Positions 8,539 through 37,641 of a stretch of DNA of 64,000 nucleotides are shown piece by piece. A program made the position numbers and the translations under genes. Where the stretch lies: the NCBI GenBank assembly GCA_033030425.1, contig JAUFSD010000001.1, forward strand, positions 992,001-1,056,000. The letters run 5' to 3'. Position 1 is the first letter of the stretch. Every line of letters begins with the position of its first letter. The notes under the pieces were generated by a model that was not told the origin of the DNA, searched no databases, and saw nothing but the letters and a program-made list of their open reading frames with translations. The DNA comes from Verpa conica (lineage: Eukaryota > Ascomycota > Pezizomycetes > Pezizales > Morchellaceae).

Positions 8539-9384
8539 TGTGACAGTTTAACGACCGTCATGACTAAGCTCAAGGTAGACTCCTTAGAGACAATTGACTA
8601 CCTCCCTTGGAGAACAGAGGTAGCTACTCTGTTCCGACCAAAAGATAGTCAACATCAGCAAAAAAAAAAAAAACTCTCCAGGAGATTTTCGTCGCCCTCA
8701 GTCTCCTGGAGAGGTGCTGGTGTTACCCGGCCGTACCACATTAACGCGCCTGCAACCCCTCTCCCCCCAGCACCCCCTACCTACTTACTACCACTCTATG
8801 AACCTATGCTAACTATTGAAAACAGCGCCTTATAGCACCGCCAGCAGTAGCCCCCCCAGCGGCTGTACTGGTACGAACACCTCATGTCCAACGCATCAAT
8901 GTGACCCCCAGAGGACCCCCAGCGCAACAGTTACAGCAAGACCCCCAGGACCACCAGCAGCCCTCGGGCCACCAAGCAAACAACTTACCCGTACCGGTAC
9001 AAACACCCCGTGTCAGACACGTTGACTGGACATCAAGCTGCCTCCCAGCGCAGCAGCAGCAGGCAGGCAGGCAGGCGGAGGGGCAAGCAGGAGGGGGGAG
9101 AGGCAGCGGAGGAGGCAGCAAAGCAGGTATATTCTTGTATATAGATTAGATAGAATATAGAGAATTGAGAATTGAGAACTGAGACTCTTCTAGACACAAC
9201 TTTTTGTTCTACTTTTATTGAGGCTCTGCTGGTATCTCTCGGATTACTAGCATCTGCCCTGAGATCTCCTGGAAATGACATGCAGCGTAAAGCATTTGTG
9301 TAAGGGTAGGTTTGCGAAATTGTCGTCCCGCTCTCCAAGAAAGCGGGACGGAATCTTTGTTTTTGCTGATGTGCTCCCGTTACA
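8539..9384. mobile_element. LTR-like insertion (solo LTR, partly replaced), in the Tc1 transposase
   Basis: Sequence starting TGTGACAGTTTAAC (8539) and ending GCTCCCGTTACA (9384) is flanked on both sides by CAGAGG. Removing it and one CAGAGG restores the transposase frame IENL-WRIMK. The first about 110 bp and last 13 bp are a diverged version of the 1.26-kb LTR at 35391-36647. The middle is replaced by the CATCAGCAAA element 8653-9371. The TSD appears to be 6 bp here versus 5 bp at the other copy, so the exact edge may be off by one base. Confidence 0.75.
8653..9371. mobile_element. Non-autonomous KDZ-like element, CATCAGCAAA termini
   Basis: Begins CATCAGCAAAA followed by an A-run and CTCTCCAGGAGATTTTCG, and ends GGAATCTTTGTTTTTGCTGATG. 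Both subterminal regions match the ends of the 9.1-kb element (right end 18700-18767 inverted; left end 9657-9780 inverted). There is no transposase, and the interior is Pro/Gln-like low complexity with CAG triplets. The flanks (AA left, TG right) do not form a duplication, so this copy may have lost sequence or recombined. Confidence 0.75.
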
Positions 9385-10302
9385 CAGAGGTTTTCAATAG
9401 AGTTGAAACCAGGTGATTGGGCAGGCCAAGGCATTTTTTGAATATGGAGCCGATTCCTAGCAGCTCTAGCTACTTTTGCTCTGTGAGAAGGTGCACCATC
9501 TTCCATAACAATTGCTTTGCAGGTAGGACAATACCGTTGCTTATAAAAAGGATATAGAACAGATTCCATAATCCAGCTTACATAATCCACTCCTTTCATA
9601 GATTTTTCCGGCAGTATAACCATAGGACCCTTATGTCCTAGCTGAATACAGTCCTACATCAGCAAAAAGCGAGATTCCTCCCCGCTCTCCTGGAGAGCGG
9701 GGTGAGCTTTTCGCAAACCTACCCTCTCACAGGTGCTTTACGCTGCACATCATCTCCGGGAGATACGCTGCCGGACCCTGAAAGTCCGGGAGAGTCTTTT
9801 TTCGGTCGGGAGAACCCCTATATGCTTAATATTTTTTTTGTTCTACTGCTTACTTTCTAGGCTGCTATTATGATCTCGAAGCTTATATTGACTGAATATT
9901 AACTAATTTTGCTCTATCTACTATCACTACATCAAAATCTTGCTCTTCCGATTATCCTAATACCGCTTATACCACCCCCCACCTAAATACCTCTACTCGT
10001 TGACACCTTGCTCCAACTACTCCTCGGCAGCTTCCGACTCCTGAGAGGTCGTCTTCACCATACCTCTACGCGCTTCAAGAATCTTCCTTAATTTTTCTTG
10101 ATTATCACTGAATCCTATAACCTCCTCTTTCTCGTTGACTTGTTTAGACCCACAATACTATCTATATTTAGTATTAATTGCCTACAAGATAGACTAGTAC
10201 GAACCAGAATTTTGATTTGAGCCCGTATATCATCTAATATATCTGCTGCGTTGTCGTTGTCCATATTCCCCCAAGTATTCAACTGCCGCTCCCAAACACC
10301 TG

Positions 10303-11614
10303 TTAACCTGTTAGCAGTCTATCCCAGCTTCCTAGAGGTCGGCAAAACCTACGAAGACAATTCCCGCGGCTAAATGTCATTGGTTCCACATACAGTCCCG
10401 TCTCCCATGCTCTAAGGCAATGGTATATCATAGCTGTAGTTAATACAATAAACCTTGAATTGATGCAATCCATAAACTCGGGCATCTTCCTGGCTGTAGC
10501 CCTGTTTCCTTTGAAGAACTTCGCATGGATTAGTGCAGGAATTGCAGACGATAGGAACCTTTGCTCTAGAAGCTACCGACCTGTCAGCAGTCGCCACCGG
10601 ATTCTAGAAACATTGTACATACCGTGTATCCATCTTCGTTACACATAAACCGATCCATATCTAACAAATAGGCAACCTGTGCCTTCAAAGCTTGCTTACC
10701 AAGGCCTGACAGACCATAAAGCGACAGAACCTCTCGCTTTGCTACTTGAAGGAACTGGGATCGCCTGCTTGCGTGTTTTGCCTTCATCTATAGCTTGTTA
10801 GTACTCGTTACCGGCTTGAAGGAGGTCGGTACCGTACATGCTTATGACTCTCTATACTTATCGGAGTGTATAATCCGTGGTCTTCCTGAGCAGCTTTCCA
10901 GCTAGATTTTATCCATTTAGATATTTCAATGGTGGTAGGGAAAGGCTCTTGAAAGTAGGTATACTCAAGCATGATATCGTTTGCGCTTTGAAGGATAGGT
11001 ATAGAGAGTGACTCAATTTGAAAAGTTCCTCTATTTGACCTGTTTCTTTGCTGCTCATACATTGAGATCTTCTCTGGCTCAGGGATAGGCAGGGCAATCT
11101 GTGTCAAAGTGAGCATCGACCTCCTAGAAGCCGTCACTATTTGATTTGGCTTTGCCAGCCGAGTTGTCTTTGGGTTCTATTACACGCATTAGCTTATTCA
11201 TTTTACCAAGGATAGATAAAACACTACCCCCTCTGTTTCCTTACAAGACTTCAACGTCTGAATTATTTCTCTGTGCTTAGGTGGTGCTTTCTTTGCTGCA
11301 GGCTTTTGGAAGACTGGTGCCTGCTTCTCAAAGTTCGGCAATCCCTTGTCAAAGTCGGTATTTGATTCGTAGTATTCATCTTCTTGAGCTATTGTATTTT
11401 GATGGCGCTGATAGCCCCTATCTCTGCTACTCTCGCTGTTAGATTCTTCAGGTTCGCTAGAGATCTCAGCCGGCTGTGGGGGAGGAGCGCGGCGACGAGG
11501 GCTTCGGCGAAGTTCAGGAGTATCTGGTTCAGTAGGCCTACGCTTCATTACCCCCTTGTACAATCTAAATGGTCTGGTTGGATGGCTCTTTTTTGTCGGT
11601 GGGGTTTTTGTCAT
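10303..11614 (-). CDS. DUF6532-like protein carried by the KDZ element, multi-exon
   Basis: Minus-strand coding segments from 11614 (MTKTPPTKKSHPTR) to the stop at 10303 look like one spliced gene. The N-terminal exon is basic and Pro/Ser-rich with a charged linker. Later segments include YEQQRNRSNRGTFQIESL, SRRSQFLQVAKREVLSLYGL and LKAQVAYLLDMDRFMC. The C-terminal part (IPALIHAKFFKGNRATARK, then EFMDCINSRFIVLTTAMIYH and CLRAWETGLY) resembles DUF6532 proteins, which are expanded in fungi. A plausible intron runs from about 10637 to 10576. Other joins are uncertain, and I cannot exclude lesions. Its place between the element's own termini makes it cargo or a transposition accessory. The role is unknown. 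Confidence 0.55.
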
Positions 11615-11689
11615 CGCGTATTAGCCTAAAATGTGGAGTTGGGGTTTGTATCGAATTGTAGGGGGTTGCTGCCGACCTCTGGGAGGTAG

Positions 11690-12540
11690 CTCAGGGGTAA
11701 AGAGCACCGCTATGACCTCATTGCTTACAACTCACAATCATTGAATAGACTCCCATATATTTGCGCAAGAAATATTTAATTGTATGAATAGGATTAAATA
11801 ATAGTTTTACACTGACCTCTAGCAGGTCGCTTCATACCTTTTCATACTTTAAACGTTAGCACTCATATGGATATTCCGGGAGAGGGGGGCTCTTACTAAA
11901 TAGAGACGATTCATATCTTGCTTTCCCCAAATAAAATACCATAACAAAAACTACAGCGAGTTCAAATGCATAATAATACTCCCGTGCCGGCTCGCAGGCG
12001 TCTGGCAACCGACTGTAAAGATATAACGCCAAATAAGGATACCACCCGTCTAATAATACTCCTGTGCCTGCTCGCAGGCGTCCGGTACCTAGCTGTAAAA
12101 AATATATAACGCTAAATAGGAATATACCACCGTAACAAATGAAATAACTAGCCCCTACCGGCTCCTAGCAGGCCGTTTCATACCTTATCATACCTATCAA
12201 TGTCAGCGTCTATATGGATATCTTGGGGGTAAGGGGAGGGGGAGGCTCTTACTAAATAGAGACGATTCATATCTTGCTTTGCCCAAATAAACTATCAAAA
12301 TAAAACTCCTGTGCCAGCTTGCAGGCGTCCGGCACCTGATTCTAAAAATATATACCACTTCATACTTGTCAATGTTAGCCTTTTTATAGATATTCTCAAG
12401 AGGGAGAGGGATTCTTACTAAATAGGTGCTTCATATCTTGCTTTCGCCCAATATATAGAAATAAAAACCAAAAAGAAAAGCATAATAATACATCAGCTTG
12501 TAAAAAAAATAACCTTAAAAGAAATACCCGCCACTAGTTT
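11690..12540. repeat. Degenerate tandem repeats inside the KDZ element
   Basis: A motif containing CTCTTACTAAATAGAGACG and a nearby CATATCTTGCTTT occurs three times (about 11890-11935, 12245-12285, 12410-12445). A second motif, CTCGCAGGCGTCTGGC and variants, occurs at about 11990, 12070 and 12310. The copies differ, so this is an old, imprecise array of roughly 130-350-bp spacing. No coding content. Confidence 0.55.
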
Positions 12541-12562
12541 CCATCAGCCTCTAGGAGGTCGT

Positions 12563-14008
12563 CTATTCCTCCTCCGACTCCTCCTCAGACTCCTCATCAG
12601 ACTCCTCATCAGACTCCTCATCAGACTCCTCCTCGTCGTCGTCCACCACTTCCTCTATTTCCCCCTTGGGTGGCTCTACTACTACCTCTTTACCCTTTCT
12701 TTTGTCCTTGCGCTTACGCTTGCGCTTGGGCTCTGCCTCAGCAGCTTCATCATCATCTTCTTCCACTATTGGCCTCCTCCTTCTCTTCCTGGGGACGACT
12801 CCACCGGGGGCGTCAACAACTTTAGGAGGGACAACGGGACCTCCACCATCATCTCCACCATCATCTCCACCATCAGGAGGACCACCGCCAGGGAGACCAC
12901 CGCCTCCAGGGGGAACCACAGCAGCAGCCTTTGCAGCAGCCCTCGCAACAGGCGACATATAATCCGAGGTATACCCCTCTTCATCCGAATGCAGGGCGTC
13001 CGGCACAAGCTCTTTATGATACGATTTCATCTCATTTAACTTTGCTTGCTGGCGCCTGATACGCTTGCGGAGGGTTTTGATGCGTTTCTGGCACCCTTTG
13101 TCGCTCCGCGGCTTGGGCTTATATCTCTGTTGAACCGGGCGATCATCATCGCTTGACTCCTCAGCGATATCTTCCTCCAGTGCATCCAGGTAACTCCTAG
13201 AAAGATGTGCCGGCTCCCCACGGGGCGGCGGAGTCTGTGGAGGGTACACACCGGCAATCGGTTGTCTGTGCAAGACCACAGTTGCTATTGGCTGAGGCGC
13301 CGTGGTTGATTCTAACCAGGCTTCGACCTCATTATCATCCGTCAACAGCATATCTTCACCCGCCATTAGATTCTGTGAAGCAGGGATTGGGATAAGTGCT
13401 CCCCAGACTTCACGAGGCTGGCGACCAGGCGCATACTTTGCAGCATACTGTAGGATATCGTGCAATTCCACCGGCCGGGAAAAACTGCGGATTTTTTGGT
13501 GAATAGCGGAGGCAGAGCTCCAGGGGTATGCACAGGTTCTTCTGAAAGCTCTTGCTGGAAGATAAGCCGGATATATAACCTCGGGATCAATAATTCGGAC
13601 CAAAATGATTTTGCGGGGGAGAGCAACACCACCAGCTACGGTGCCTGCTTCAGGAAGTCCGTCACCAACACCGTCAAAGTCGCCAGTATTTGCCATCTGC
13701 TTATCTGCCAGAGCCCGAGCCTCATTTTTCTTCTTAATTGCATCGATGCAGAGATTTTTGACTGCTTTGCGGACGAGATCGGTTAGCTCCAGGGGCCCCT
13801 CGCCATCAAAGGCTGCCTTGAACCGCGACAGATACTGGTGATTCGATGCATGCTCCTCACAGGTCGTCCACGTCTCCCTATCAGGGGTGTCAATCCCCGT
13901 GATTCCATGCTGAATGGAGAAGGCGGTTATATGGTCCCGAACAACCATATATGCTCGATTATTGCTGCTATTAAAGCCCAGTACCACCTTAAAGTCCGCT
14001 GCTTTCAT
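12563..14008 (-). CDS. Unknown protein with acidic C-terminus, carried by the KDZ element
   Basis: An uninterrupted 481-codon frame starts MKAADFKVVLGFNSSNN. I do not recognise the family. The N-terminal about 240 residues look globular (for example WTTCEEHASNHQYLSRFKAA and IDPEVIYPAYLPARAFRR). A basic segment with KGCQKRIKTLRKRIRRQQ and a coiled-coil look follows, then a Gly/Pro-rich linker, a Lys/Arg block (KRKRKRKDKRKGK) that could be a nuclear localisation signal, and a terminal Asp/Glu/Ser repeat. Immediately upstream, the frame ending in TEPQK overlaps this ATG (ATGA), so the true product may start further up with a frameshift or intron. It is minus-strand like the DUF6532-like gene and divergent from the transposase. 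An accessory role is inference. Confidence 0.6.
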   Translation of the reverse strand: MKAADFKVVLGFNSSNNRAYMVVRDHITAFSIQHGITGIDTPDRETWTTCEEHASNHQYLSRFKAAFDGEGPLELTDLVRKAVKNLCIDAIKKKNEARALADKQMANTGDFDGVGDGLPEAGTVAGGVALPRKIILVRIIDPEVIYPAYLPARAFRRTCAYPWSSASAIHQKIRSFSRPVELHDILQYAAKYAPGRQPREVWGALIPIPASQNLMAGEDMLLTDDNEVEAWLESTTAPQPIATVVLHRQPIAGVYPPQTPPPRGEPAHLSRSYLDALEEDIAEESSDDDRPVQQRYKPKPRSDKGCQKRIKTLRKRIRRQQAKLNEMKSYHKELVPDALHSDEEGYTSDYMSPVARAAAKAAAVVPPGGGGLPGGGPPDGGDDGGDDGGGPVVPPKVVDAPGGVVPRKRRRRPIVEEDDDEAAEAEPKRKRKRKDKRKGKEVVVEPPKGEIEEVVDDDEEESDEESDEESDEESEEESEEE

Positions 14009-14617
14009 TTCTGTGGCTCTGTGGCTCTGGGGCGAGGTGTTGGTGGTGGTGCTGGTGCTGGCACCACTGCAGGCGCTGCACCACCACGGGCTCCTCCACG
14101 ACCACCCCGACGACTACGACCACGGCCACGGCCAGCCATACTTGGTGACGGGCTTTTAGGAGTTGGTGAAGGACTTCCGAGGGCTCTTGCTGACCTTTTG
14201 AAGGCTGGCCTGCGCGATATAGTAGAGAGTCCCTCTTGTAGGGCTTTGGGCCTTCAAGAGCTCTGTGGAGTTATTGGGGTGCCTCCAGATACTCGTAAGA
14301 ATGTGGGGGTGCGGAGTTGTTGGGTGGATGGTAGGTCAGATCCCACCGGCTTCTGAGGGGCTGGTACAGGTTCTTTGGGGGGCGGTAAGGTTTCTATTCA
14401 AAATTAGAGTCTCGTCTAAAAGGCTTGACCTGGAGCTCGGCTTACCAGCGCCAGAGGAACTCGGTGAGCTACTACTACTAAATCCAAACGGCTGCTGAGA
14501 GGTCGACTGAGAGGCTATAGGAGTAGGCGGTAGACTTAGGAAAACGTCGTCGTCGTCTATTGAATTGACTGCTTTCCATCCAGTGGATTGCTTTTTTGCT
14601 GGTGGTAGTGGAGGCAT
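14009..14617 (-). CDS. Possible N-terminal exons of the acidic-protein gene (RGG-rich)
   Basis: From about 14617 a frame begins MPPLPPAKKQSTGWKAVNSI and runs to a stop at 14336, with Ser/Pro-rich content. The next segment on the same strand reads an Arg/Gly box (RGRGRSRRGGRGGARGG, about 14080-14130) in another frame and ends over the ATG at 14008. The composition fits an intrinsically disordered, RNA-binding-like N-terminus joined by one or more introns, but I could not find a single splice plan that keeps frame through to 14008. Boundaries are uncertain. Confidence 0.4.
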
Positions 14618-15268
14618 GTTTGCTTTCTTATATATCACAACCTCGAATAACATGAAACAAGGGAAAGGCCTGCAAACAAAGGAGAATAGAGATGTGAAAC
14701 GGGGGTAGTAAGGCTCTTTGTTGAAGCTGTTGAAGCGGGGGGGGATTGAAACGAGAGTGTTGTTGAAGCGAGGTTTGGTGAGAGTTGAAAGCTGAGGTTG
14801 AGGTAGATAAGCTGAGTAGGGTTAGGCTTGTGACGTCATTTGAGGATCCAGCCAGGTCTATTTAAAAATGGATACCGACCTCTCTCAAGCCGGTATTAGG
14901 CTGAGGAGGGTATCTTCAACTTCTAGCAAACGTTAATAAAGCCTTTAATTGCTCTAGGAATCCTTTGTCTACCTGCAGCGTCGCGCGGGTGCATGTAGGC
15001 AATTTTCTGCCTTCTGCGGGGTGCATGTAGGCAATTTTCTGCCTTATTGCTTAGTCATCGCCTCGCCAACCCCTAGCTGCAATATATATACTACTCTGCA
15101 CTGTAAGATAGTCTCCTAGCGCTGTATCAAGCATTAGTGAATATTTAAGGCCTTAACCCCACGATTCTAATCATTTTGGTGGAATGGTGTTTATTGGTGA
15201 CTAACTCACCCGTTTGTTGCTTGATCGCAGCCTTTGCCGGACCCCTAGAAGTTGCAATATACTTCAGC
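14618..15268. promoter_or_regulatory. Divergent region between the KDZ accessory genes and transposase
   Basis: About 650 bp separates the minus-strand accessory genes from the plus-strand transposase. It contains a direct repeat of GGTGCATGTAGGCAATTTTC at about 14988-15010 and 15018-15040, each followed by TGCCTT. Nothing else was recognised. Confidence 0.4.
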
Positions 15269-18200
15269 ATGTCTTCAGCAACCAAATGCCCATTCTGCTC
15301 CAATCGCTATATATATGGTGGGGCATGGGAGAATCACATTATACGGGCCCACGAACAATTAGCTAGGAAGTCCCGGTACGCGAACTTACTACCGGACTTA
15401 CGGTGGTCCTCCACAGCACGCTACCAGAGGATCAATAGCAAAAAGAAGCCACAGTACCCAGCTGACGGCCTTTCCACGGTCGGCACCGACTACGAGAAGG
15501 AGCAGGAGGAGCAGGAGGAGCGAGAGGAGCGAGAGGAGCTAGAGGAGCTAGAGGAGTCAGAGGAGCTAGAGGAGCGAGAGGAGCGAGAGGAGCGAGAAGA
15601 GTCAGAGGAGCTAGAGGAGCGAGAGGAGCGAGAGGAGCTAGAGGAGCTAGAGGAGTGAGAGGAGCTAGAGGAGCGAGAGGAGCGAGAGGAGTCAGAGGAG
15701 CTAGAGGAGCGAGAGGAGCTAGAGGAGAGTTGTAGTAGTGAGAATGATGAGGATGGCCTGGACTCAGACGAAGAGCCTGCCTCTGATACGGAAAGTGACG
15801 ATGGGCTCTCCAGAGGGTCTAAAGCAACTTTAGATGAGCGATTACCGGACGCTGGGAGTTCGGTGGGACCTATACCTAATTTCTTGGATATCAGACGAGA
15901 GCTCCTCAGGGATCCAGTTTTCCCTTTCCAGACCGTATACGATTTTAGCCTAGCAAAATGGTTCATCGATCACAAAACGACAAAGACTGCTATCGAAGAG
16001 TATTTTCATAAAGGCCTGTATAAAGGAGGCACCGGCTCCTTGAAGTCCGCCTATACCCTCTTTAAAGCCATCAAAGCGTTACATACTACTCTAGGGGCGC
16101 CTAGTTGGGAGTTTGTTGAGGAAAATATAGATGAGGAACCTTTTGTTTTAGCACACCGTGATCCAATGGTGTGTATCAGATATCTTTTAGGTCAAGCAGC
16201 ATTCTCGAAGGATATGGTATACGCACCTATTCAGGAATTCAACTCCTCTGGTGAAAGGATGTATTCTGAACTTCATACCGCTGATTGGTGGTGGGATTTA
16301 CAGGTATGATACCGACTCTCTAGAGTCCGACATCAACTGCTAATAAGTTATAGAAAACCCTTTCCAATGGCTCCACAGTAGTCCCAATCCTCTGCGCCTC
16401 AGATCAAACGCACTTAACAGACTTCTCGGGAGACAAAAAGGCTTGGCCAATCTATCTGACTATCGGCAACATATTATCAAAAACTCGAAACAAACCCACC
16501 TCGATGGCAATGGTGCTTCTTGCCCTTCTACCAATCCCACCAAAGATAGGCAAACTCAAGGCTAAAGATGCCGATGCCTACCGAGTAAAGGTGCGTGTTA
16601 TCCTGGATAAAGCAATGGAGAGGGTACTTTCGTCTCTCCACGAGCCGGCAACGAATGGAGTTGAACTGGGTTGCGCTGATGGACAGCTGCGGTACTGCTA
16701 CCCTGTGGTCTGTGGCTGGATAGCTGATCATTTAGAGCATGTTACCCTTCAGTACCTCAAGAATAATTCTTGTCCAGTATGCGAGATCGATGCATCTAGC
16801 CTAGGAGAACTCTCGCCGGAACCCTTTAAGGTTAGAGATCACGAAGCCTACAAAGCCAAGCTGAAACTCTTCGAAGAGACTGAAGATACCGAGCATCTTG
16901 ATTGGCTACAAGCCAGGGGGCTGAAGGTACCGATGAACAGCTTTTGGCGGCTTCCTAGGGTCCGGCCTGAGCAGATATGGAAACCTGATATGCTGCATAT
17001 AATCTATCTAGGCATGCTTAAGCACTTGATGGAATGGGTACAGGGATTTCTCCGGAAGCATGATCGCCTTGACGAGTTCGATAACGCGTGGAGGTCTATT
17101 CCTCCATATACTGGTATCACTGTTTTTAAAAAGAAGTATCGAGAGGTGTCTCAGTGGCAAGGGAAAGAAATGAGGAATCTAGAACGATACCTTCTCGTAG
17201 CGTTGACGGTTTCCCTCAGGAAACCAACGACCTCCCAGGGGCCGGAGTTCAAGCGTACCCTTCAGTGTGTTCAGGCCCTCACTGACTTCCATCTCTTGGC
17301 TCAGTATCGAAGCCATACAGAAGAAACTCTTGGATATATGGAAGCCTATTTGCAGAGATTTCATGACTATAAGGACATCTTCCTCGAGTTCCGGAAGTCC
17401 AAGAAAACACAGGCCAAGGCTAAGGATGCAACCGATTTACTACGCCTAGCTCACAAAAGAGCGGTGCCAGCCTCTCAGAGTCCGAGCAAGAATCGCAGAA
17501 TATCAGAGCAGCAGCAGGAAATCTATCGCGAGGAATCCCATTTCAACTTCATCAAAATGCACCTTTTGACCCACTTTGTACCCCACGTACGTCAGTTTGA
17601 TAACATCCCCATCTACTCCACAGAGGTCGGCGAAGTCTCTCACCGAGAACAAATAAAAGTTGGCTACCGCGCTTCAAACAAAGTCAACGCTACCAAGCAG
17701 ATACTGGAGCACTACTCTCGCAGACAAACGTTGGCAATGCGGATGATTGAGATTCGGGAAGCGGCTCGAGGGAAGTCGGCAAAGACCCTTGGAAGCGAGG
17801 TTGTAGAACTTCTACAAAAAGAAAGAACGCCAGCATGGATCGATTTAGATACTAAGCGGCAAAGGAGACCTCTACGACTCCTACGGGGTAAAGTCATCAA
17901 CAGTGGATCGGTAATCGATTTAATGGAGCTTCTAAGCAACGAGAGCTTAGTTTATAAAATAATGAAGTATAATAGAGGTTTGCCGGACTCACAGAGGATG
18001 ACGGCGGGCGTACAGGAGTTGGAAGGGTTCCTGGTGGAGCGCTTCACACAACTCCATATACCAGTAGCTAAATACCAAGAGACTGATCAATATACTATCC
18101 ACCACGTCCGGTGTACACTAGACGAACGATTCCGGGATGGTGGGCCTAGGAACGATTGGGTGTGGATTCAAGCCGGAGATGAGAGTGAATTTGGAGCGTT

Positions 18201-18495
18201 GAGAGGACGCTTGCCTGGTCAATTGCGGTGTTTATTTAAACTGAGGGACCCTGGTACGGGACTAAGCTACCGCCTAGCGTTGGTTAAAATGCTCCGAGTG
18301 CTGGACGACGGACGCATAGAGGCTGGCATGCTATTGAGAGCGGTAGATCGTAGGCCCAAGGTCCCTGGAAGCGATGAATGGTTAGTGAGTGTGGCCTTAA
18401 TTGTAGGTATGGCATATATAGTACCAGATGCAGAGGAAGGACAATGGATTATAAATAATCGGATAGATCTTGAGACCTTTAATGATGTATACTAG
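15269..18495 (+). CDS. Plavaka-type KDZ transposase, two exons, one in-frame TGA
   Basis: Catalyses cut-and-paste movement of the element in the nucleus. Exon 1 (15269-16303) starts with a C2H2 zinc finger (CPFCSNRYIYGG...HIIRAHE), then an acidic GAG-rich linker, then FPFQTVYDFSLAKWFID and ELHTADWWWDLQ. A 50-bp intron (16304-16353) follows. Exon 2 (16354-18495) carries the family hallmarks PILCASDQTHLTDFSGDKK, AWPIYLTIGNI and RPEQIWKPDMLHIIYLG. The first Asp and the Asp of PDMLH are probable catalytic residues. The ATG at 15269 was chosen because it lies just before the zinc finger. The reading frame is open for about 1,075 codons except for one TGA at 15656-15658 inside the Glu-rich linker, where neighbouring repeat units have TCA. 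This may be a recent inactivating mutation or a consensus error. Confidence 0.85.
15495..15735 (+). repeat. Coding trinucleotide-rich repeat (Glu-rich linker of transposase)
   Basis: Units of GAG-GAG-CGA, GAG-GAG-CTA and GAG-GAG-TCA alternate, giving EER/EEL/EES blocks. One TCA unit reads TGA (15656-15658), the sole stop in the transposase frame. Such repeats are prone to slippage and assembly error. Confidence 0.8.
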
Positions 18496-19364
18496 AGGGC
18501 CCAGTCAATTTGGGAACGACCTGAGAGAGGTCGGTAAAAACTTGTCATTTTTTTCTGAAACAATCATCAAATAGTCTCCTGGAGAAGTAAATCTCCCAAA
18601 TATCTCCCGGAGACTTCTAGGAAACTTCCTGTCTCCCAGAGATCTTTAAACTGCCTTTTGGCGCCCGGGCGCTGAGGGGTCGGCAAGCACACTCCAGGAG
18701 AGCGGGGCGGACTTTCTCCGCCCAGGCGACGAAAATCTCCCGGAGAGTTTTTTTTTTTTTGCTGATGTATATCATTATTGATATTCTCTCACTCTTAAAA
18801 GTTGGTAGCAAATACTCTGCTTTATCTTCCTCACTAATGGCTCTATATACCCAACAGGTACCTCCATGAAACCCTACCTCAAATTGTAATTTGTTAGTCT
18901 ATATAACTACTGCCCAATCTTCTAAAATAGCGTGTTTCCGTGCTTTACACCATAGCATCCACTTAAGCTTATGGACTTTAGTCTAAAAAAGTTTCATCAG
19001 CAAAAGACTAATAGTGTCCCGGGTACTACCAGGGACTCCCGGGGACCGCTGGGACCCCCGAGACTCCACCCGATCCCGAGGTAGATGCTGGTGCCCCAGG
19101 GACATAGGTGCGTGTCCCGGGGGTGTCCCAGAGACGGGGCATATGGGTCCCAGGAGGGTCCCGGGGACGGCACATATGTGGTCCCAGGAGCGTACCAGGA
19201 CAGTCCCAGGGACACTTCAGGACTGCTTGGGAACGCCATAGGACTGCTTAGAGACTGCTTAGGGGACTCTCGATTCTGTCACTTTCATGTCTCTTTTCGT
19301 CATGACTTTTGCAATCGAATATATTTGGTCAATGTATCCTATATAGTCTATGTACAATAAATCT

Positions 19365-19695
19365 CTACACGCCCCCCCCCCTGCTTGCTGCCCTACCTGC
19401 TGCTTGCTTGCTGCCCCCCCCCCCACCTGCCCCCCCCCCCCACCTGCTTCCCCCCCCCACCTGCTTCCCCCCCCTGCTTGCTGCCCCCCCTGCTTGCTGC
19501 CCCCCCCCTGCTTGCTTGCTGCTGCTGCTGCCCGTGGGGCCTGCTTCTCGAGTCCTAATTAACGCGTCAGACATAGTCGGACTGTGGCCAGACAAGGAGT
19601 AAACGTACCGTAACAGGTAGGTTGTTCGCTCTATATGGAGGGGTCTGCTTGGTCTCTGCCAGGGGGTTGCTCCTGCTGTTGCTCCTGCTGCTGCT
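19365..19695. repeat. Poly-C, TGCTTGC and CTG low-complexity arm
   Basis: Runs of 7-13 C alternate with TGCTTGCTG. A unit containing AACGCGTCAGACATAGTCGG (19561-19580) and ending in CTCCTGCTG runs follows. The same unit recurs at about 26218 and 26391 on the other side of the retrotransposon. Open frames across it are compositional artefacts. Confidence 0.75.
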
Positions 19696-23977: not shown

Positions 23978-23987
23978 AGAAAAATCG

Positions 23988-25436: not shown

Positions 25437-25537
25437 CGAGGGTAGCTGGGAGGCGAAATGCCGGAGGGTCCCAGGGGGCCACTACTGGCAGACATTGGTA
25501 CAGTGTTGTTGGGTAGGCTTGAAGGGACGCAACGTAG

Positions 25538-26184: not shown

Positions 26185-26338
26185 CTGCTGCTGCTGCGGC
26201 GCGTGGGGTCCTAATCGACGCGTCAAACATAGTCGGACCACGGTCAGACAAAAGGTGAACGTACCATGATGGGTAGGTTGTTCACTCTATATGGAGGGGT
26301 CTGCTTGGCCTCCTGCCAGAGGGTTGCTCCTGCTGTTG

Positions 26339-26375
<37 letters not shown>

Positions 26376-26575
26376 GCGTGGAGTCCTAATCGACGCGTCA
26401 GACATAGCCAGACCGGGACTGGACAAGGGGTGTTCGTACCATGACGGGTAGATTACTCGCTCTATATGGAGGGGGTCTGCTGGGGGGGGGTCTGCTGGGG
26501 GGGGGGGTCTGCTGGGGGGGGGGTCTGCTGGGGGGGGGGGGTTCGCTGCTTTGCTGGAGGAGGTGTTGCTGCAGT
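26185..26575. repeat. CTG microsatellite and poly-G tandem arm
   Basis: Two units with GACGCGTCAAACATAGTCGG-like sequence (about 26218, 26391) alternate with CTG runs of up to about ten triplets (26340-26375). A stretch of GGTCTGCTGGGGGGG units (26460-26550) follows. It continues the repeat arm at 19554-19695 that the Gypsy element interrupted. Confidence 0.78.
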
Positions 26576-26932
26576 CGTGATATGTATGGAGAGGAGCAGG
26601 GACTTAGAGGTTTTTGACGAGGTTAGGGCCGGGTAACAGCCGGGTAACCTTGTCCCAGGGACGCTCCGATTCTCTGCAGACTGTCCCGGGGACCCCCAGA
26701 TCCACTGCAGAGAGTCCCTGGGACTCCCGAGGCCTACAGGCGTCCCATGGGGCCGCTGGGAACCCCAGGGAACCCCAGAGACTCTGGTGTATGTCCCAGG
26801 AGTAAAAATCTTTTGCTGATGTTCTTTTTGGCTCGGTATTTGTTGATTCTTTCCTACTTAAGAATTTTGCGTGCAGTCTTCATGGAAACCTTAGTGGTAA
26901 TACTGTGTACTAGAACTTCTAGGCACATGTGT

Positions 26933-27172
26933 CATCAGCAAAAGTACTTTTCAATCCCAGAGCATCCCTGGAACAACTGTGGAACAAATTACATAGTAGC
27001 TGGAGACACCACCCAGTCCCAAGAGACAAAATGGCTGTCTCTGGAATGGATCTTGGGACTGGGTGGTGTCTCTATTCTGTCCCAGTTGTGTCCCAGTTGT
27101 GTCCCCTACTGTCCCCTTTATCCCTGGGACTATCTGAGACTATTTTTGAATAAGAAAAGACTTTTGCTGATG
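26933..27172. mobile_element. 240-bp CATCAGCAAAAG element with internal hairpin
   Basis: Begins CATCAGCAAAAGTACTTTTC and ends AAGACTTTTGCTGATG, with GT repeated on both sides. The interior holds an inverted repeat of GAGACACCACCCAGTCCCAAG (about 27003-27023, inverted at 27053-27073), giving a long stem. Its GTCCCAGGGAC-like arms resemble the 18995-26821 element. Non-coding. Confidence 0.8.
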
Positions 27173-27207
27173 GTTGCCTCCATTTAGCTAGGCACATGTG
27201 TTGCCAC

Positions 27208-28844
27208 CATCAGCAAAAAAAAAAAAACTCTCCGGTAGATTTTCGTCGCCCAGGTGGAGAAAGTTCGCCCCGCTCTCCTGGAGAGCGCTGCCGACCCCTC
27301 AGCACCCGGGCGAGAGACCGTCGCCCTCAGTCTCCTAGAGAGATGCTGGTGTTACCCGGCCGTACCACATTAATGCGCCTGCAACCCCTCTCCTCCAGCA
27401 CCCCCCACCCACTCACTACCACTCTATGAACCTATGCTAACTATTGAGAACAGCGCCTTATAGCACCGCCAGCAGTAGCCCCCCCCCAGTGGCCGTACTG
27501 GTACGAACACCTCATGTCCAACGCGTCAATGTGACCTCCAGAGGACCTCCAGCGCGACAGCTGCAGCAGGACCCCCAGCAAGCCTCCAGCAGCCTTCAGC
27601 AGCCCCCGGGCCACCAAGCGAACAACCTACCCGTTCAGGTACAAACACCCTTGGTCCGACGCGTCAACTGGACGTCGAGCTCATCAGCAAAAACAAAGAT
27701 TCCGCCCCGCACTCCTGGAGAGCGGGGCGACGATTTCACAAACCTACCCTCCCACAGGTGCTTTACGCTGCACGTCATCTCCGGGAGATCTCAGGGCGGA
27801 CGCTAGCAGTCCGGGAGATGCCGGGAGAGCCTCAATAAGAGTAGAACAAAAAGTTGCGTCTAGAAGAGTCTCAGTTCTCAATTCTCTATTCTCTATGTTC
27901 TATCTAATCTATATACAAGAATATACCTGTTTTGCTGCCTCCCCGCTGCCCCCCCCCCCCACTTGCCCTGCCGCCTGCCTGCCTGCCTGCCTGCCTGCCT
28001 GCTTGCTTGCTTGCTTGCCTGCCTGCCTGCCGCTGCTGCGCTGGAAGGCAGCTCGACGTCCAGTCGACGCGTCGGACCAAGGGTGTTTGTACCTGAACGG
28101 GTAGGTTGTTCCCTTGGTGGCCCGGGGGCTGCTGAAGGCTGCTGGAGGCTTGCTGGGGGTCCTGCTGCAGCTGTCGCGCTGGAGGTCCTCTGGAGGTCAC
28201 ATTGACGCGTTGGACATGAGGTGTTCGTACCGGTATGGCCGCTGGGGGGGGAGCTACTGCTGGCGGTGCTATAAAGCACTGTTCTCAATAGTTAGCATAA
28301 GTTCATAAAGTGGTAGCGAGTGGGGGGAGGGTGCTGAAGGGAGAGAGGCGCGTTAATGTGGTACGACCGGGTAACACCAGCATCTCTCCAGGAGACTGGG
28401 AGCGACGATCCCTCGCTCGGGCGGAGAATGGTTGCCCCCAGTCTCCAGGAGAGCGGGGCGAACCTCCTTCGCCCAGGCGACGAAAATCTCCCGGAGGCTT
28501 TTTTTTTTTTTGCTGATGCTGCCTCCTAACGCAGCAGCGGCAGGCAGGCAGGGCAAGTGGGGGGGGGGCAGCGGGGAGACAGCAAAGCAGGTATATTCTT
28601 GTATATAAATTAGATAGAACATAGAGAATAGAAAATAGAGAATTGAGACTTTTCTAGATGCGACTTTTTGTTCTACTCTTATTGAGGCTCTCCTGGCATC
28701 TCCCAGACTGCTAGCATCCGCCCTGAGATCTCCTAGAGATGACGTGCAGCATAAAGCATCTGTGGGAGGGTAGGTTTGCGAAATCGTCGCCCCGCTTGCT
28801 CTGTTCTCCAGGAGAGCGGGGCGGAATCTTTGTTTTTGCTGATG
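27208..28844. mobile_element. Non-autonomous KDZ-like element (outer copy)
   Basis: The left end (CATCAGCAAAA, A-run, CTCTCCGGTAGATTTTCG) and right end (GGAATCTTTGTTTTTGCTGATG) are those of the 8653-9371 element and of the 9.1-kb transposon. A second copy in reverse orientation (27682-28518) interrupts it. Without that insert the outer element is about 800 bp. The flanks (AC left, TA right) do not match, so one end may derive from a different insertion. Confidence 0.75.
27682..28518. mobile_element. Non-autonomous KDZ-like element (inner, inverted copy)
   Basis: Starts CATCAGCAAAAACAAAGATTCC and ends with an A/T run then TTGCTGATG, i.e. reversed relative to the outer copy. CT is repeated on both sides. 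The outer element's interrupted sequence GACGTCGAGCT...GCCTCC is intact, in reverse, inside this inner copy at about 28045-28065, which directly shows the empty site. It carries CTGC/CCTG runs (27965-28035) and no coding gene. Confidence 0.82.
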
Positions 28845-29293: not shown

Positions 29294-29295
29294 TA

Positions 29296-29769: not shown

Positions 29770-30299
29770 TATCAATAAATTTATAAAACACTTTACATAC
29801 TATTAAATTTATTATATAACTTTTAATTGTTTACTGGAAACAACGATTACAATATGGTTGTGTTTGGTCAATTTGATATTTCAGACCTGGATGATGATAT
29901 GCCCAGAACTGTACAAGTGGTGGTTGCAAATTGAGGCAACAACCGCTAAAACACACCAAAAGTAGCCAACTTTACAAATCTGGGACCAGTGTTTCCCAAG
30001 ACAAAAAATAGTTCCTGTATGTATTGATAGCATCAGCAAACCTGCAATCGTGTCCTGACGCAATTGGTGTAGCAACTGTTGCATCACAGGAAGTCACCCA
30101 CGTCACAAGCATCCCCAGCACCCCAAGCGTCACCATACCACTACCAGTACCAGGAGCGCCCCACAAGAAGCTCTGGGAACCGTACTACTTAAAAAATTAA
30201 GTTTCTTGTGAGAGAACTATTGTTCCCTCCTACCCGCAGATTACTAGTCTTTATTAACTACCGTTCTCTTCAGAAAAACAAGCGAGGTTTTGGAGGTGT

Positions 30300-30485
30300 G
30301 TTCCGCCAACCCTAACCCTGCTTGGATACACCTAACCCTGCTTGGATACCCCTATTCCTCCAGGGACCTCGCCAAAATTCTCTAAGTCCCTGAACACACC
30401 ACACCACACCCATCTCATCGCACCACACCACGCCTACCCTCTACCCCCTACCCCCTACCCCCTACCCCCTACCCCTACCCTATTT
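30300..30485. repeat. Telomere-like and C-rich repeats
   Basis: AACCCTAACCCTGCTTGG-type units (about 30308-30350) are followed by ACCCCCT repeats (30436-30480). Homologous stretches occur at 33655-33830 and 34785-34970 in the other two copies. The CCCTAA units are few and internal to a transposon, so this is not a chromosome end. Confidence 0.7.
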
Positions 30486-30574
30486 CTCTATTGCTATTTG
30501 ATCAGTAAAAGCTAACTTATATGCAGGCTGTCTCGTCTCCTTTCACTCGTGTCATGACGCGTTCTACCGACGCG

Positions 30575-31440
30575 TCGTGCCAGCAGCAGGACCTCCTAAG
30601 CAGCAGCAGCAGGACCTTCTAAGCGACAGCAGCAGGGTCCTCGAGACCTCCCTCAGGCGACAGCAGCAGGACCTCCTAAGCAGCAGCAGCAAGACCCCCT
30701 AAGCAGCAGCAGCAAGACCCCCTAAGCGACAGCAGCAAGACCTCCTAAGCAGCAGCAGCAGGTCCCTCTAAGCGACAGCAGCAAGACCTCCTAAGCAGCA
30801 GCAGCAAGACCCCCTAAGCGACAGCAGCAGGACTCTCGAGACCCCCTCCAGGCGACAGCAGCAGGACTCCTAAGCGACAGCAGCAGGACCCCTAAGCGAC
30901 AGCAGCAGGACCCCCCTAAGCGACAGCAGCAAGACCTCCTAAGCAGCAGCAGCAAGACCCCCTAAGCGACAGCAGCAGGACTCTCGAGACCCCCTCCAGG
31001 CGACAGCAGCAGGACCCCCCTAAGCGACAGCAGCAAGACCTCCTAAGCAGCAGCAGCAGGACCTCCTAAGCAGCAGCAGCAGGACCTCCTAAGCAACAGC
31101 AGCAAGACCCGAGACCCCCCCCCCAGGCGACAGCAGCAGGGTCCTCGAGACCCCCTAAGCGACAGCAGCAGGACCCCCTAAGCGACAGCAGCAAGACCTC
31201 CTAAGCAGCAGCAGCAAGACCCCCTAAGCGACAGCAGCAGGACTCTCGAGACCCCCTCCAGGCGACAGCAGCAGGACCCCCTAAGCGACAGCAGCAAGAC
31301 CTCCTAAGCAGCAGCAGCAGGACCCCCTAAGTGACAGCAGCAAGACCCCTTAAGCGACAGCAACAGGGCCTCGAGACCCTCCAGGCAATAGCAGCAGGAT
31401 CCTCGAGACCCTCCCCCCCCAGGCGACTGCTGTAGGTCTC
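30575..31440. repeat. CAG-rich minisatellite, about 22-25-bp units
   Basis: Units of the form AGCGACAGCAGCAAGACC followed by CCCTA or TCCTA repeat for about 860 bp, with interspersed CTCGAGACCCCCTCCAGG variants. Units vary in length. It belongs to the interior of the CATCAGCAAACC elements, since matching arrays occur at 33920-34506, 35060-35345 and 36962-37110. Confidence 0.88.
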
Positions 31441-32912
31441 CAGGACTATGGGAACCTCTCGGGTGACAAGCAGGTGCTGAGGACAAGCAAATTAGAGATA
31501 TTATGTACATATTAGATAGCATATAATAAAATAATTGAGAACCATATTAGTACTTCTGTGATGTGACCGTGACAAGAGCGTGACAGCACCAGAGGACGTC
31601 AGGAAGCCTACCAGAGAGCGTCAAGACGTCTACCAGAGAGCGTCAGAGGCATCAGGAGCCTCTGACGCTCCCATAGCGGCGTCAGGAGCCTCTGACGCCT
31701 TCAGCAGAGCGTCAGGAGCCCCTGACGCCTCACAATAGCGTCATATTCGGCCAATTGCCGAATGTGGCATCCCCAGCGTCCCGTGCAACAGTTGCTCCTG
31801 ACGCAATCTTGCAGGTTTGCTGATGAGAATGCTAACTCTGCAAATACTACTCTTTCAATTTCCCTGGCTAATTTCTTTATAATCTGGGTAGGCAAACACT
31901 AAAAGCCAAAGACTACTTGTGTGGTATGCATTATTTTTTTCACAACACAAAATGTGCATCTGAGCCCATTTCAATTTGCTATTTTTTATGTCTACTCCAA
32001 AAATTGCTACAAGTAAATAATCTCTTGATAAATTAGGAATATCTACAGGTTTATGAATTACTCTATGATATCAGAAGTTTATTTCCATAACTCCTGTAAT
32101 AAATTTGTGAAGTTGGCTATTTTCGGTGTGTTTTGGTGGTTGTTGCCTCAATTTGCAACCACCGCTTGTACAGTCATAGGCAATAAGTCATCGAATGCGG
32201 TTTCAGTGAATCTTGGCGTGTTTTAGCCCATTTATTCATAGCTTTCAAGCAGGAGACTGCCATAGATGTAAAAAAAATCGAGCTTCAAAGCCAATAAGAC
32301 CAGAGTTTCTTTATATGAGTAACTTCAATTTTATCCAGTAATTGGGGCCTATATCTACTCCATTCATTTACAAGGTACACTTGTTTTTCTTACTTCTTTT
32401 TAGGTATGTATAGTTAGATAAGAGATAAAATAATAAAAAAGACTTTACTAGGAGTTATAGACCCTAGACTCTATATTCTAAGAGTCTATAGATGCAGTTA
32501 GCACACCAATATCATTCATTATCTGCCATTCTGAAAAAACCATCTTTTACATTGTACAAATTGCCAAATTTAGCCCCAAAAGCGGTGGCATCTTATGGCC
32601 TGAATAGGGGGTTAGGGGAGGTTTTCTCCCACCCTAAATACATATAGACACTACTACTACATCAGCAAACCTGCAATTGTGTCATGACGCAATTGGTGTA
32701 GCAACTGTTGCATCACAGGAAGTCACCTGCGTCACCAGCATCCCTAGCACCCCAAGCGTCACCAGTACTACTGCTAGCGCCTGAAGTGCCCTGCAATAGT
32801 CACCAGTACTGCTGCCAGCGCCAGGAGCGCCCCGCAAAAGGCTTTGGGAACCGTACTAGAAAATTCTTGTTTCTTGTGAGAGAACTATTGTTCACTCTTA
32901 CCCGCAGGTTAC

Positions 32913-33590
32913 TGTAATGGCGGTGCTTAGGGGGAGTGCCTAGATGACGGAGTACGGCAGGGACTTTGGTTGTGTTTTCAACGGAGCAAAGGGGTAACGG
33001 CGAGAACTTGGACGGCGACAATGATTCTTCGGTGAAATCCTTGGATATAAAAGATCCAAGAAAGCAGTGGAATTCTTAGTAGAAAACTTAGGAAACAAGA
33101 GATTGCGTAACGAAAGAAAGTCCTCCACGAAGCGGGGCTTCACCTCGCTTATATACAAAAACTCCGACCGTCCAAGCCTTATTCCTCTACCCGCGTTACC
33201 TAAAACCACTTTGCTAATTACAAATCCTTGGATATGCCATATCCTTCCCCTAAGTTACTTTCCCATACTAGCCCCATACTAAAGGTACAAGTGCCCCTTC
33301 GAGACCTTTCGGACGTCCTATTCCCATTCCGTTTTCTCTGACATATGCGCGAACCCTAAAAAAGCTTAACTCCCAAAATCCGGCATCCTATCAACGTCCT
33401 GTGTGACGGCGTAGGCCTAAAAGACCCCTTTTGGGACTCCTTTGTAAACGGGCTGTGTTACGGCGCACATAATCGACTCAATCTCCTCGTAGGGGCAGTA
33501 CTGAAGGTGATCCGCTTTCGCAGGCGCCGGTCCAGTTTGGAATCGATCGCTCTATACATTTCCCCAGTATCTCCGAGACTGCCCACGACA
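32913..33590. mobile_element. Solo LTR with GTTAC target duplication
   Basis: Begins TGTAATGGCGG and ends GCCCACGACA, flanked by GTTAC (32908-32912 and 33591-33595). In copies C1 and C3 the corresponding site (CCGCAGATTACTAGTC) is empty. Ends and hairpin (TTGGATATGCCATATCC at about 33225) resemble the LTRs of the Gypsy element at 19696, so it is a related but diverged chromovirus family left by LTR-LTR recombination. Confidence 0.85.
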
Positions 33591-33919
33591 GTTACTAGTC
33601 TTTGTTAACCATCGTTCTCTTTAGAAAAACAAGCAAGGTTTTGGAGGCACGTTCTGCCAACCCTAACCCTGCTTGGATACACCTAACCCCTACCCCTACC
33701 CCTATTCCTCCAGGGACTTCGCCAAAATTTTCTAAGTCCCTGAACACACCACACCACACCCATCTCATCGTACCACACCACGCCTACCCCTTACCCGCTA
33801 CCCCCCTATCCCCTACCCCTACCCTATTTCTCTATTGTTATTTGATCAGTAAAAGCTAACTTATATGCAAGCTGTTTTGTCTGCTTTCACTCGTGTCATG
33901 ACGCGTTCCACCGACACGT

Positions 33920-34508
33920 CGTGCCAGCAGCAGGGCTCTCAAGACCCCTCCCAGGTGACAGCAGCAGGACCTCCTAAGCAGCAGCAGCAGGTCCCTCTAA
34001 GCAGCAGTAAGACCTTCTAAGCAGCAGCAGCAAGACTCCCTAAGCAGCAGCAGCAGAGTTCTCAAGACCCCTCCCAGGCGACAGCAGCAGGACCTCCTAA
34101 GCAGCAGCAGCAAGACTCCCTAAGCGACAGCAGCAAGACCTCCTAAGCAGCAGCAGCAAGACCCCCTAAGCGACAGCAGCAGGACTCTCGAGACCCCCTC
34201 CAGGCGACAGCAGCAGGACCCCTAAGCGACAGCAGCAGGACCCTCTAGGCGACAGCAGCAAGACCTCCTAAGCAGCAGCAGCAGGACCTCCTAAGCAACA
34301 GCAGCAAGACCCTTGAGACCCCCTCAAAGCGACAGCAGCAGGGTCCTCGAGACCCCCTCCAAGCGACAGCAGCAGGGTCCTCGAGACCCCCTCCAAGCGA
34401 CAGCAGCAGGGTCGTCGAGACCCTCCAACCGACAGCAGCAAGACCCCCTAAGCGATAGCAGCAGGCTTCTCGAGACCCCTTCCAGGCGACAGCAGCAAGA
34501 CCTCCTAA
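33920..34508. repeat. CAG-rich minisatellite of copy C2
   Basis: Same unit type as 30575-31440 (GCAGCAGCAGCAAGACC with CCTAA spacers). It is cut by copy C3 after CCTCCTAA and resumes at 36962 with GCAACAGCAGCAAGACC. Confidence 0.85.
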
Positions 34509-35059
34509 CATCAGCAAACCTGCAATCGTGTCCTGACGCAATTGGTGTAGCAACTGTTGCATCACAGGAAGTCACCTGCGCCACAAGCATCCCCAACACC
34601 CCAAGCGTCACCATACTACTGCCAGTACCAGGAGCGCCCCACAAGAGGCTCTGGGAACCATACTACTTAAAAGTATGTTTCTTGTGAGAGAACCATTGTT
34701 CCCTCCTACCCGCAGATTACTAGCCTTTATTAACTACCGTTCTCTTCAGAAAAACAAGCGAGGTTTTGGAGGCGCGTTCCGCCAACCCTAACCCTGCTGG
34801 AATACACCTAACCCTGCTTGGATACCGCTAACCCCTACTCCTATTCCTCCAGGGACTTCGCCAAAATTCTCTAAGTCCCTGAACACACCACACCACACTC
34901 ACCTCATTGCACCACACCACGTCTACCGCCTACCGCCTACCCCTCTCCCCTACCTCTCTCCTCTATTTCTCTATTACTATTTGAACAGTAAAAGCTAACT
35001 TATATGCAGGCTGTCTTGTTTCCTTTCACCCGTGTCATGACGCGTTCTACCAACGCGTT

Positions 35060-35345
35060 ATGCCAGTAGCAAGACCCTCAAGACCCCGCCAGGCGACAGC
35101 AGCAGGACCTTCCAAGCAGCAGCAGCAAGACCCTCGAGACCCCCCCGGGCAACAGCAGCAGGACCTCCTAAGCAGCAGCAGGAGGACCCCCTAAGCGACA
35201 GCAGGAGGACCTCCTAAGCGACAGCAGCAAGACCCCCCAAGCAACAGCAGCAAGACCTCCTAAGCGGCAGTAGCAGGACTCTCGAGTCTCGAGACTCTCC
35301 AGGCGACAGCAGCAAGACCTCCTAAGCAGCAGCAGCAGGATCCTT
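35060..35345. repeat. CAG-rich minisatellite of copy C3
   Basis: Short array of the same degenerate CAGCAGCAAGACC units as in C1 and C2. It runs up to GTTAGGGTGACAAGCAGG, which precedes the LTR insertion site. Confidence 0.8.
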
Positions 35346-35390
35346 GAGACCGTTAGGGTGACAAGCAGGTGCTGAGAACAAGCGAATTAG

Positions 35391-36647
35391 TGTGACGATT
35401 TAACCATTGTCATGACTAGTCTCAAGTACCTCTCCATATAGAGACACCTAAGGATCTCCCTTGAGGGATAGGACTAGCTATCCCATTCCGGTCAATAGAT
35501 ACTAAGGAAAGTCATTACTATGATAGCCCGATCCCTAAGCGAGCTGGCGAGCCCCTAGGACGGAGCAAAACTCACCGTTGTCAGTATGCGACAGAGACCA
35601 GAGTAATGCGTCTGTAGCTTAGAGCTACGGGAGATACTAGTGCAATGAGACTGAAGCAGTTGCCTCCATGAACAGAGTTAAGCTCCTGTTCTTCTAGGAG
35701 GAATAACAACGGCTTCGCTGATGGCCAACCTTATGGGAGGCCGAGAGCCGTGAGATGAGAGCAAAGCTATGCTTAGTAGTTAGGGCCGCCAGCAAAAGTA
35801 ATAATTAACCTGGCGGCGTCACGAATCGAACCATACGGGGCTATGCCTTGTGCTTCGCCCTAAGGTCCTTATGTATCAAGATTACCTCTCCGCCACGTCC
35901 CCAGGTTGGACTAGGAACGAGGAAAAGGAATCTAAGCAACGGCAGGAATCATCAGTGGGTTACCCTGCCTAGGGGACTCTGTGTTTTCTAAACACTCGCG
36001 AGGCGCCCCACTGTGCCACCCGCCGTTTGCAGAGGGGGCCCCCCTGAGTTGCTGATTCCCTAACAAAAAGACAAGTTTTGGACCCCAAAAATAACCCCAA
36101 AACCGTCAGGAAAATTCGTCCAACCGAACCAAACTCGGAGGGTATATGGGGGACAGTGCTGCGAATCCATAGGTGCAATCGGATTTGAAATCGGACCATT
36201 ATAGCAAAAGTTACAGAGCTTTTAGTAACCAACGCTTTTTAGTCGCTAGTCTATCGACCCCGCTAGTTCTTAGGGGCGCTCTAGACTCAGTTGATTTCCA
36301 AGCACGGAGGAATTGTTCCCCGCTCCTTGGCAGCCTGCTCGCAATCAAAATTCATAGCTTAAACCCGTCCTTCCCCCAGGACAATCATTCTTGCTAGTCA
36401 ACGAACAACCGTTGTTCAGAGACCCTCATACTCTTCGCTAAAGACGTTTGTCTTCCCCTGGGAAGCAGAGCCTTTTAAAGTCTTTAGTTATCGACCCATT
36501 AAATCCTTATTCCTGTTTTGCCTAGGGACTGTCGACCTTCCGTGTTGACGAGCGGTTCTAAGCTTCGCTGCTGAAGCTTCTCGTCAGAAAGGGAGGTTGT
36601 TGGTTTTTTTGGTACGGCAGTACTCCCCTGGGAGTGCTCCCGTTACA
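35391..36647. mobile_element. Solo LTR, 1.26 kb, ATTAG target duplication
   Basis: Begins TGTGACGATTTAACC and ends GCTCCCGTTACA, the TGT...ACA form of LTR ends, flanked by ATTAG (35386-35390 and 36648-36652). The uninterrupted site is visible in C1 (about 31487-31500) and C2 (about 37163-37175), where AAATTAGAGATATT is continuous. No internal polymerase domain is present. The same family is inserted in the Tc1 transposase at 8539. The superfamily is unknown. Confidence 0.85.
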
Positions 36648-36961
36648 ATTAGGGATATTTTGTACATATTAGATAGCATATAATAAAATAATTGAGAACC
36701 ATACTAGTACTTCTGTGATGTGACCGTGACAAGAGCGTGACAGTACCAAGCAGTACCAGAGAACCTCAAGAAGCCTACCAGAAAGCGTCAGAGACATTAG
36801 GAGCCTTTGGTGTTGCGTCAGGAGCCTCTGATGCTTTCAGCGGAGCGTCAGGAGCCCCTGATGCTTCTCAGTAGCGTCATATTCGGCCAATTGCCAAATG
36901 TGGCATCCCTAGCGTCCCGTGCTACAGTTGCTCCTGACGCAATCTTGCAGGTTTGTTGATG

Positions 36962-37110
36962 AAGCAACAGCAGCAAGACCTCCTAAGCAGCAGCAGCAGG
37001 ACCCCCTAAGTGACAGCAGCAAGACCCTCTAAGCAACAGCAACAGGGTCCTCGAGACCCTCCAGGCGACAGCAGCAGGATCCTCGAAACCCTCCCCCAGG
37101 CGACTGCTGT
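36962..37110. repeat. Tail of the C2 CAG-rich minisatellite
   Basis: Continuation of 33920-34508 after the C3 insertion, ending in CCAGGCGACTGCTGTAGGTC as in copy C1. Confidence 0.8.
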
Positions 37111-37641
37111 AGGTCTCCAGGACTATGGGAACCTCTCGGGTGACAAGCAGGTGCTGAGGACAAGCAAATTAGAGATATTTTGTACATATTAGATAGCATA
37201 TAATAAAATAATTGAGAATCATACTAGTACTTCTGTGATATGACCGTGACAAGAGCGTGACAGCACCAGAGGACGTCAAGAAGCCTACCAGAGAGCGTCA
37301 GAGGCATCAGGAGCCTCTGACGCTCCCATAGCGACGTCAGGAGTCTCTGACGCTTTCAGCAGAGCGTCAGGAGCCCCTGACGCCTCACAATAGCGTCATA
37401 TTCGGCCAATTGCCGAATGTGGCATTCCCAGCGTCCTGTGCAACAGTTGCTCCTGACGCAATCTTGCAGGTTTGCTGATGTAGAACATAAAAAAAGCCCA
37501 CTAGATAAAGACTTACTCTCTATAAGTAACAGTCTGCCCAAGTATCATGAAATAATAAGAGCGCCAAGGCCCAATAACACCACCTAAAACAGGTCTTACC
37601 ATGGCTCAGGCCGTCCGATAACTTATTGCCTATGGCTGTAC

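Follow-up and report, generated by a model that had tools for sequence, protein, structure and literature searches.

A clan of probable PlavakaB-type transposons with two-base target-site duplications in Verpa conica

Nine elements with a shared terminus

The window analyzed here, by which we mean the whole stretch of 64,000 nt of Verpa conica DNA (G000:C1:992001-1056000, where C1, C3 and so on are contigs of a 45.8 Mb genome assembled in 25 contigs), contains a clan of nine elements that share the terminus CATCAGCAAA and are mostly flanked by a 2-bp repeat, and one of which carries a Plavaka transposase. A preliminary description of the window had recognized the nine elements, and their termini are all found at the positions it gave, except that the right terminus of one of them (36952-36961) has a one-base mismatch. 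We sorted the ends into families A, A2, B1, B2, B3, C1, C2 and C3, which are labels set by subterminal sequence.

The leftmost element (8653-9371, minus strand, 719 bp) has exact termini of family A and the flanks AA and TG, without a 2-bp repeat. It is followed on the plus strand by the 9.1-kb transposase-bearing element, also of family A (9657-18767, target-site duplication (TSD) TA), and by an element of family B2 (18995-26821, TSD TT) that is split by a retrotransposon, its two halves being 86-90% identical to a 1217-bp element at C10:993168-994384. The intervening retrotransposon (19696-26184, minus strand) is of the Gypsy type by its domains, and its long terminal repeats (19696-20346 and 25538-26184) are 98.6% identical. 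Next on the plus strand is a 240-bp element of family B1 (26933-27172, TSD GT), and then a minus-strand element of family A without a 2-bp repeat (27208-28844), which hosts a nested plus-strand element of 837 bp (27682-28518, TSD CT). The remaining three elements are on the plus strand and have ends of family C1: one of 1795 bp (30031-31825, TSD AG), and a host (32660-37480, TSD TA) with a nested element of 2453 bp (34509-36961, TSD AA), the latter not being an exact-terminus element owing to its mismatched right end.

Arrays of a 23-bp repeat (CAGCAGCAGGACCTCCTAAGCAG) are found inside the C1 elements at 30581-31362, 33959-34497 and 35064-35279, and one array is broken by the nested copy at 34509-36961. 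Beside a clan element, a weak match to DDE_3 on the minus strand (9036-9653), below the cut-off, is perhaps the remnant of another transposon. A 516-aa minus-strand frame (12566-14113) inside the transposase-bearing element was not treated as a gene because it has no Pfam match and none of the 7987 candidates scored is homologous to it at E <= 0.001. Outside the clan, an asparagine synthetase frame (5595-6599) is 91% identical to its counterpart in Morchella snyderi and 87% identical to that of Choiromyces venosus, the best organism-named matches.

Length and sequence of the target-site duplication

The exact 2-bp flanking repeats previously reported for seven of the nine window elements (TA, TT, GT, CT, AG, TA and AA) were reproduced, and none of the nine has a longer one. 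With the window dinucleotide frequencies, seven or more matches would arise by chance with a probability of about 1.4e-7, a value calculated on the pairing of ends proposed in the preliminary description itself. The test across genome pairs that had been suggested there was made on ends paired by bracket matching, blind to the flanks. The exact terminus occurs 491 times in the genome, compared with 81 occurrences of the reversed control pattern; a portion of 385 of these sites was examined, with contig 1 over-represented, so that coverage is incomplete and not random. Regions were chosen by coordinates alone, as dense places and plus/minus neighboring termini. This gave 53 pairs (8 in the window), of which 5 with unlike or unclassified ends were retained in the count, and then 23 more.

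A 2-bp match is present in 53 of the resulting 76 pairs, against a mean of 9.1 and a maximum of 20 in 20,000 shuffles. Matches of 1 bp (20/76, shuffle mean 19.1) and 3 bp (1/76, shuffle mean 1.6) are at the shuffle level, and no pair matches at 4 to 10 bp. The window pairs contribute 5 of 8 and the pairs outside it 48 of 68, for which off-register controls gave 4, 7 and 4. No 10-base flank was found twice on the same side among these pairs, and the cases are therefore not recent copies of one insertion. By family, the 2-bp match is seen in 13/16 pairs for C1, 9/10 for C2, 2/2 for A2, 10/13 for B1, 3/5 for B2 and 2/2 for B3, in two of the five pairs with mixed or other ends and not in the single unclassified pair. 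Six further long pairs include five with a 2-bp match; the sixth (C13:985378-1010935), scored as a miss, has a 4-bp match, but both its ends are of one type and it is probably a mispairing.

Empty sites fix the ends of the elements. When 55 joined flanks with 80 bases on each side were used as queries, 13 found an uninterrupted relative at >=75% identity, and 11 of the 13 are gapless around the junction after removal of one 2-bp copy, a few of them with junction substitutions. Several empty sites had been described as visible in the window; relatives of the nested elements 27682-28518 and 34509-36961 do fit a single CT and a single AA, respectively, and none was found for the other seven elements in the DNA searched. 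In one case outside the window, C11:226903-232542, an element of family C1 flanked by TAT on both sides, exactly three bases are missing from the uninterrupted relative (90.6% identical), and a 3-bp duplication within a family that otherwise makes 2-bp duplications is thus supported by a single case. In the thirteenth empty site (C5:1109666-1110852) the gap lies about nine columns off the junction.

The duplications were originally thought to share no fixed sequence, and the 53 TSDs do comprise 15 dinucleotides (TA 12, TG 9, AA 9, TT 4, others at most 3 each), with TA, the sole target of Tc1/mariner elements, accounting for 12. They show in addition a weak, palindromic, CTAG-like target bias: C precedes or G follows the TSD at 42 of 106 places (P 3e-4), and T is first or A second within it at 52 of 106 places (P 7e-7), both values being uncorrected for the number of positions. 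On a larger scale, the segment C1:892000-1176000, which includes the window, is 7.4% of contig 1 and holds 52 of that contig's 73 exact termini; this dense transposon nest is possibly centromere or heterochromatin.

The Plavaka transposase and its predicted folds

The transposase gene of the 9657-18767 element lies on the plus strand. Its first exon part (15659-16303; PF18759 positions 4-99, E 1.1e-15, in a frame scanned to 16306) is followed by a predicted phase-0 intron of 50 nt (16304-16353, GTATGA...CTAATAAG...TATAG) and by a second exon encoding 713 aa (16354-18492; PF18759, E 3.3e-53), for which the structure model has a predicted local distance difference test score of 84.2. Six other copies have a 60-nt intron-like stretch at the same place, ending in TAG. 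We considered whether the in-frame TAG of many Plavaka copies is a conserved stop; in the copies that were read, it coincides with the 3' splice site of a short intron predicted there. A plus-strand open frame upstream of the core (15149-15655) shows by eye a C2H2-like Cys/His pattern and has no Pfam match; the relatives P0014, P0057 and P0109 have weak zinc-finger matches, below the cut-off. The next frame is separated from it by a stop (15656-15658).

A second copy, C1:3429545-3439550, has CA on both flanks and a transposase 95.7% identical to that of the window, so that PF18759 is found in two 2-bp-flanked pairs of family A. It is also found in three family A2 pairs of about 14.4 kb, C9:708906-723266 (AA), C9:899750-914122 (TG) and C10:1741410-1755827 (CT), in the family C1 pair C9:862223-871467 (AA), in the family C2 pair C4:1233482-1248112 (TG) and in a 14.6-kb CATCAGCAAAAG-ended pair, C3:1443229-1457820, with TA on both flanks. 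A 31.8-kb terminus pair flanked by AA on both sides (C14:890571-922347) has an unfamiliar subterminal sequence and no Plavaka match listed inside. The TET/JBP domain PF12851 has at least nine matches in the genome, at least four of them over the cut-off, and by coordinates none lies inside a transposase-bearing pair with identified ends. Two are found near other Plavaka copies, C23:97623-97988 at about 12 kb from the matches C23:84720-85725 and C21:742788-743174 at about 20 kb from C21:721471-722475, and one below the cut-off (C11:1361108-1361323) lies about 590 bases to the left of the short element C11:1361914-1363241.

Among 120 listed transposase relatives, those named by organism are from Morchella, Maublancomyces and Tirmania, all of which are Pezizomycetes. 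In homologue alignments (A1 and A2) drawn from 45 of these relatives, chosen mostly by length, D125, C140, C143 and E427 are conserved in 46/46 sequences, H407 in 45/46 and H403 in 44/46, and the sequences thus have the C(2)C and H(3-4)H motifs between the second D and the last E. The transposase model gives fold matches to RAG1 and HzTransib, and together with the conserved motifs these point to a predicted RAG1-like catalytic core at residues 3-471 (16360-17766, plus strand), with Asp17, with Asp109 or Asp125 as the candidate second catalytic Asp, and with Cys140/Cys143, His403/His407 and Glu427.

The C-terminal part of the exon-2 protein (residues 506-702; 17869-18459, plus strand) has a BAH-like fold in the predicted structure, with conserved aromatic residues. 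Residues 500-713 have no Pfam match at E values up to 10, and alignment A2, used as a profile against PDB sequences, gave no match. It is possible, but in our judgment rather doubtful, that the Plavaka transposases of the Pezizomycetes act as RAG1-like recombinases whose single chain also includes a BAH chromatin reader, so that insertion is steered into marked chromatin. Such steering, if true, would account for the crowding of the contig 1 termini into one small segment. RAG1 acts with RAG2, through whose separate PHD finger the RAG recombinase reads chromatin, and Transib and RAG1 (ProtoRAG) make 5-bp TSDs; the fungal enzyme differs in its shorter duplication and in having the predicted BAH-like domain in the same chain as the core, and would be a one-protein parallel to RAG1 plus the histone-reading RAG2.

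Interpretation and comparison with known transposons

The termini, the 2-bp duplications, the empty sites, the Plavaka domain inside the elements and its conserved motifs make it very probable that the clan consists of PlavakaB-type cut-and-paste DNA transposons, with 2-bp and rarely 3-bp duplications and an enzyme predicted to be of the RAG1/Transib-like DDE kind. In the mechanism we envisage, each end family would be moved by a Plavaka transposase of its own or by a related one, and the predicted core of this enzyme would cut at the CATCAGCAAA ends and join them to both target strands with a stagger of 2 bp, rarely 3, and gap filling by host repair would then produce the duplication. Short non-coding elements would be mobilized in trans, and the BAH-like domain may direct the complex to particular chromatin.

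Several observations weigh against this interpretation. The 2-bp match is weak in family A (11/19) and weaker in C3 (1/3), and 23 of the 76 pairs lack it. In 15 of these misses a single base of the two is different, in 4 cases by one transition, which fits decay of the duplication without proving it. Others are mispairings, including at least one window pair: because the true right terminus of 34509-36961 is mismatched, the blind pairing joined its left end to 37480, a pair scored as a miss, and 32660-37480 is consequently absent from the blind count. Taken by query length, the TM-scores to RAG1 lie in a modest range of 0.35-0.41, the window copy of the transposase may not be active in view of the stop at 15656-15658, and the assignment to PlavakaB follows the published description of termini, TSDs, domain and motifs.

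One rival reading is that these are standard CACTA/EnSpm elements, with duplications of 3 bp, whose ends were misread. Plavaka transposases are recognizably similar to those of EnSpm, according to PMC12730594, and one 3-bp duplication is backed by an empty site; however, the ends are fixed by the empty sites and 3-bp matches do not exceed the shuffle level, which refutes this for the bulk of the elements and leaves it very unlikely overall. Membership in the KDZ group (Zisupton, Dileera, Kyakuja) is less likely still, to the point of being negligible. An earlier classification placed Plavaka with KDZ, and the preliminary description used the label Plavaka/KDZ, of which only the first half stands: PMC12730594 states that this grouping is to be corrected and gives Zisupton TSDs as 8 bp, a length absent from the 76 pairs, and the transposase domain found here is PF18759, for which a RAG1-like fold is predicted. 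The short elements could instead be a separate group that merely shares the terminus, for example one moved by another superfamily. Subterminal sequences do vary among families, and in the minority of long pairs that were read, none of the Plavaka carriers identified has exactly the subterminal sequence of B1, B2, B3 or C3. However, the ten terminal bases and the 2-bp duplication of B1, B2 and B3, if hardly that of C3, are those of the Plavaka carriers, and the CATCAGCAAAAG-ended pair, whose subterminal sequence is unlike B1, B2 and B3, does contain PF18759, so that we regard this explanation as quite unlikely.

The reading as PlavakaB-type transposons places the clan within a recently described group. 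The central point of the preliminary description is already published, since PMC12730594 (Biology 2025;14:1741, December 2025) gives PlavakaB the termini CATCA..TGATG and TSDs of 2 or 3 bp; in the accessible literature this paper alone joins Plavaka with Morchella or with CATCA, and an earlier Plavaka paper (PMC8290104) places its terminal inverted repeat motifs in a supplementary figure. The present analysis adds evidence from statistics and empty sites in a pezizomycete host, the single duplication of 3 bp, a weak bias in target choice and the prediction of a RAG1-like core joined to a BAH-like domain. The 2-bp duplication of PlavakaB is thereby independently confirmed by flank-blind statistics and empty sites, and the predicted core with its BAH-like domain offers a testable idea of target choice by these fungal transposons.

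As PMC12730594 describes them, fungal EnSpm/CACTA families share with the clan the CA..TG ends and the Cys and His motifs within the catalytic core, but have CAC..GTG ends and 3-bp TSDs, neither of which characterizes the elements described here; the contrast with 3-bp CACTA and with Tc1/mariner elements drawn in the preliminary description therefore holds, apart from the one 3-bp case. PlavakaA shares the 2-bp TSDs and the Plavaka transposase and differs in its termini, TGT..ACA. PlavakaB shares the CATCA..TGATG termini, the 2- or 3-bp TSDs, the Plavaka transposase and the C(2)C and H(3-4)H motifs; the published families are from Agaricomycotina, whereas the present clan has a pezizomycete host, the extended terminus and no TET/JBP match inside its transposase-bearing pairs with identified ends.
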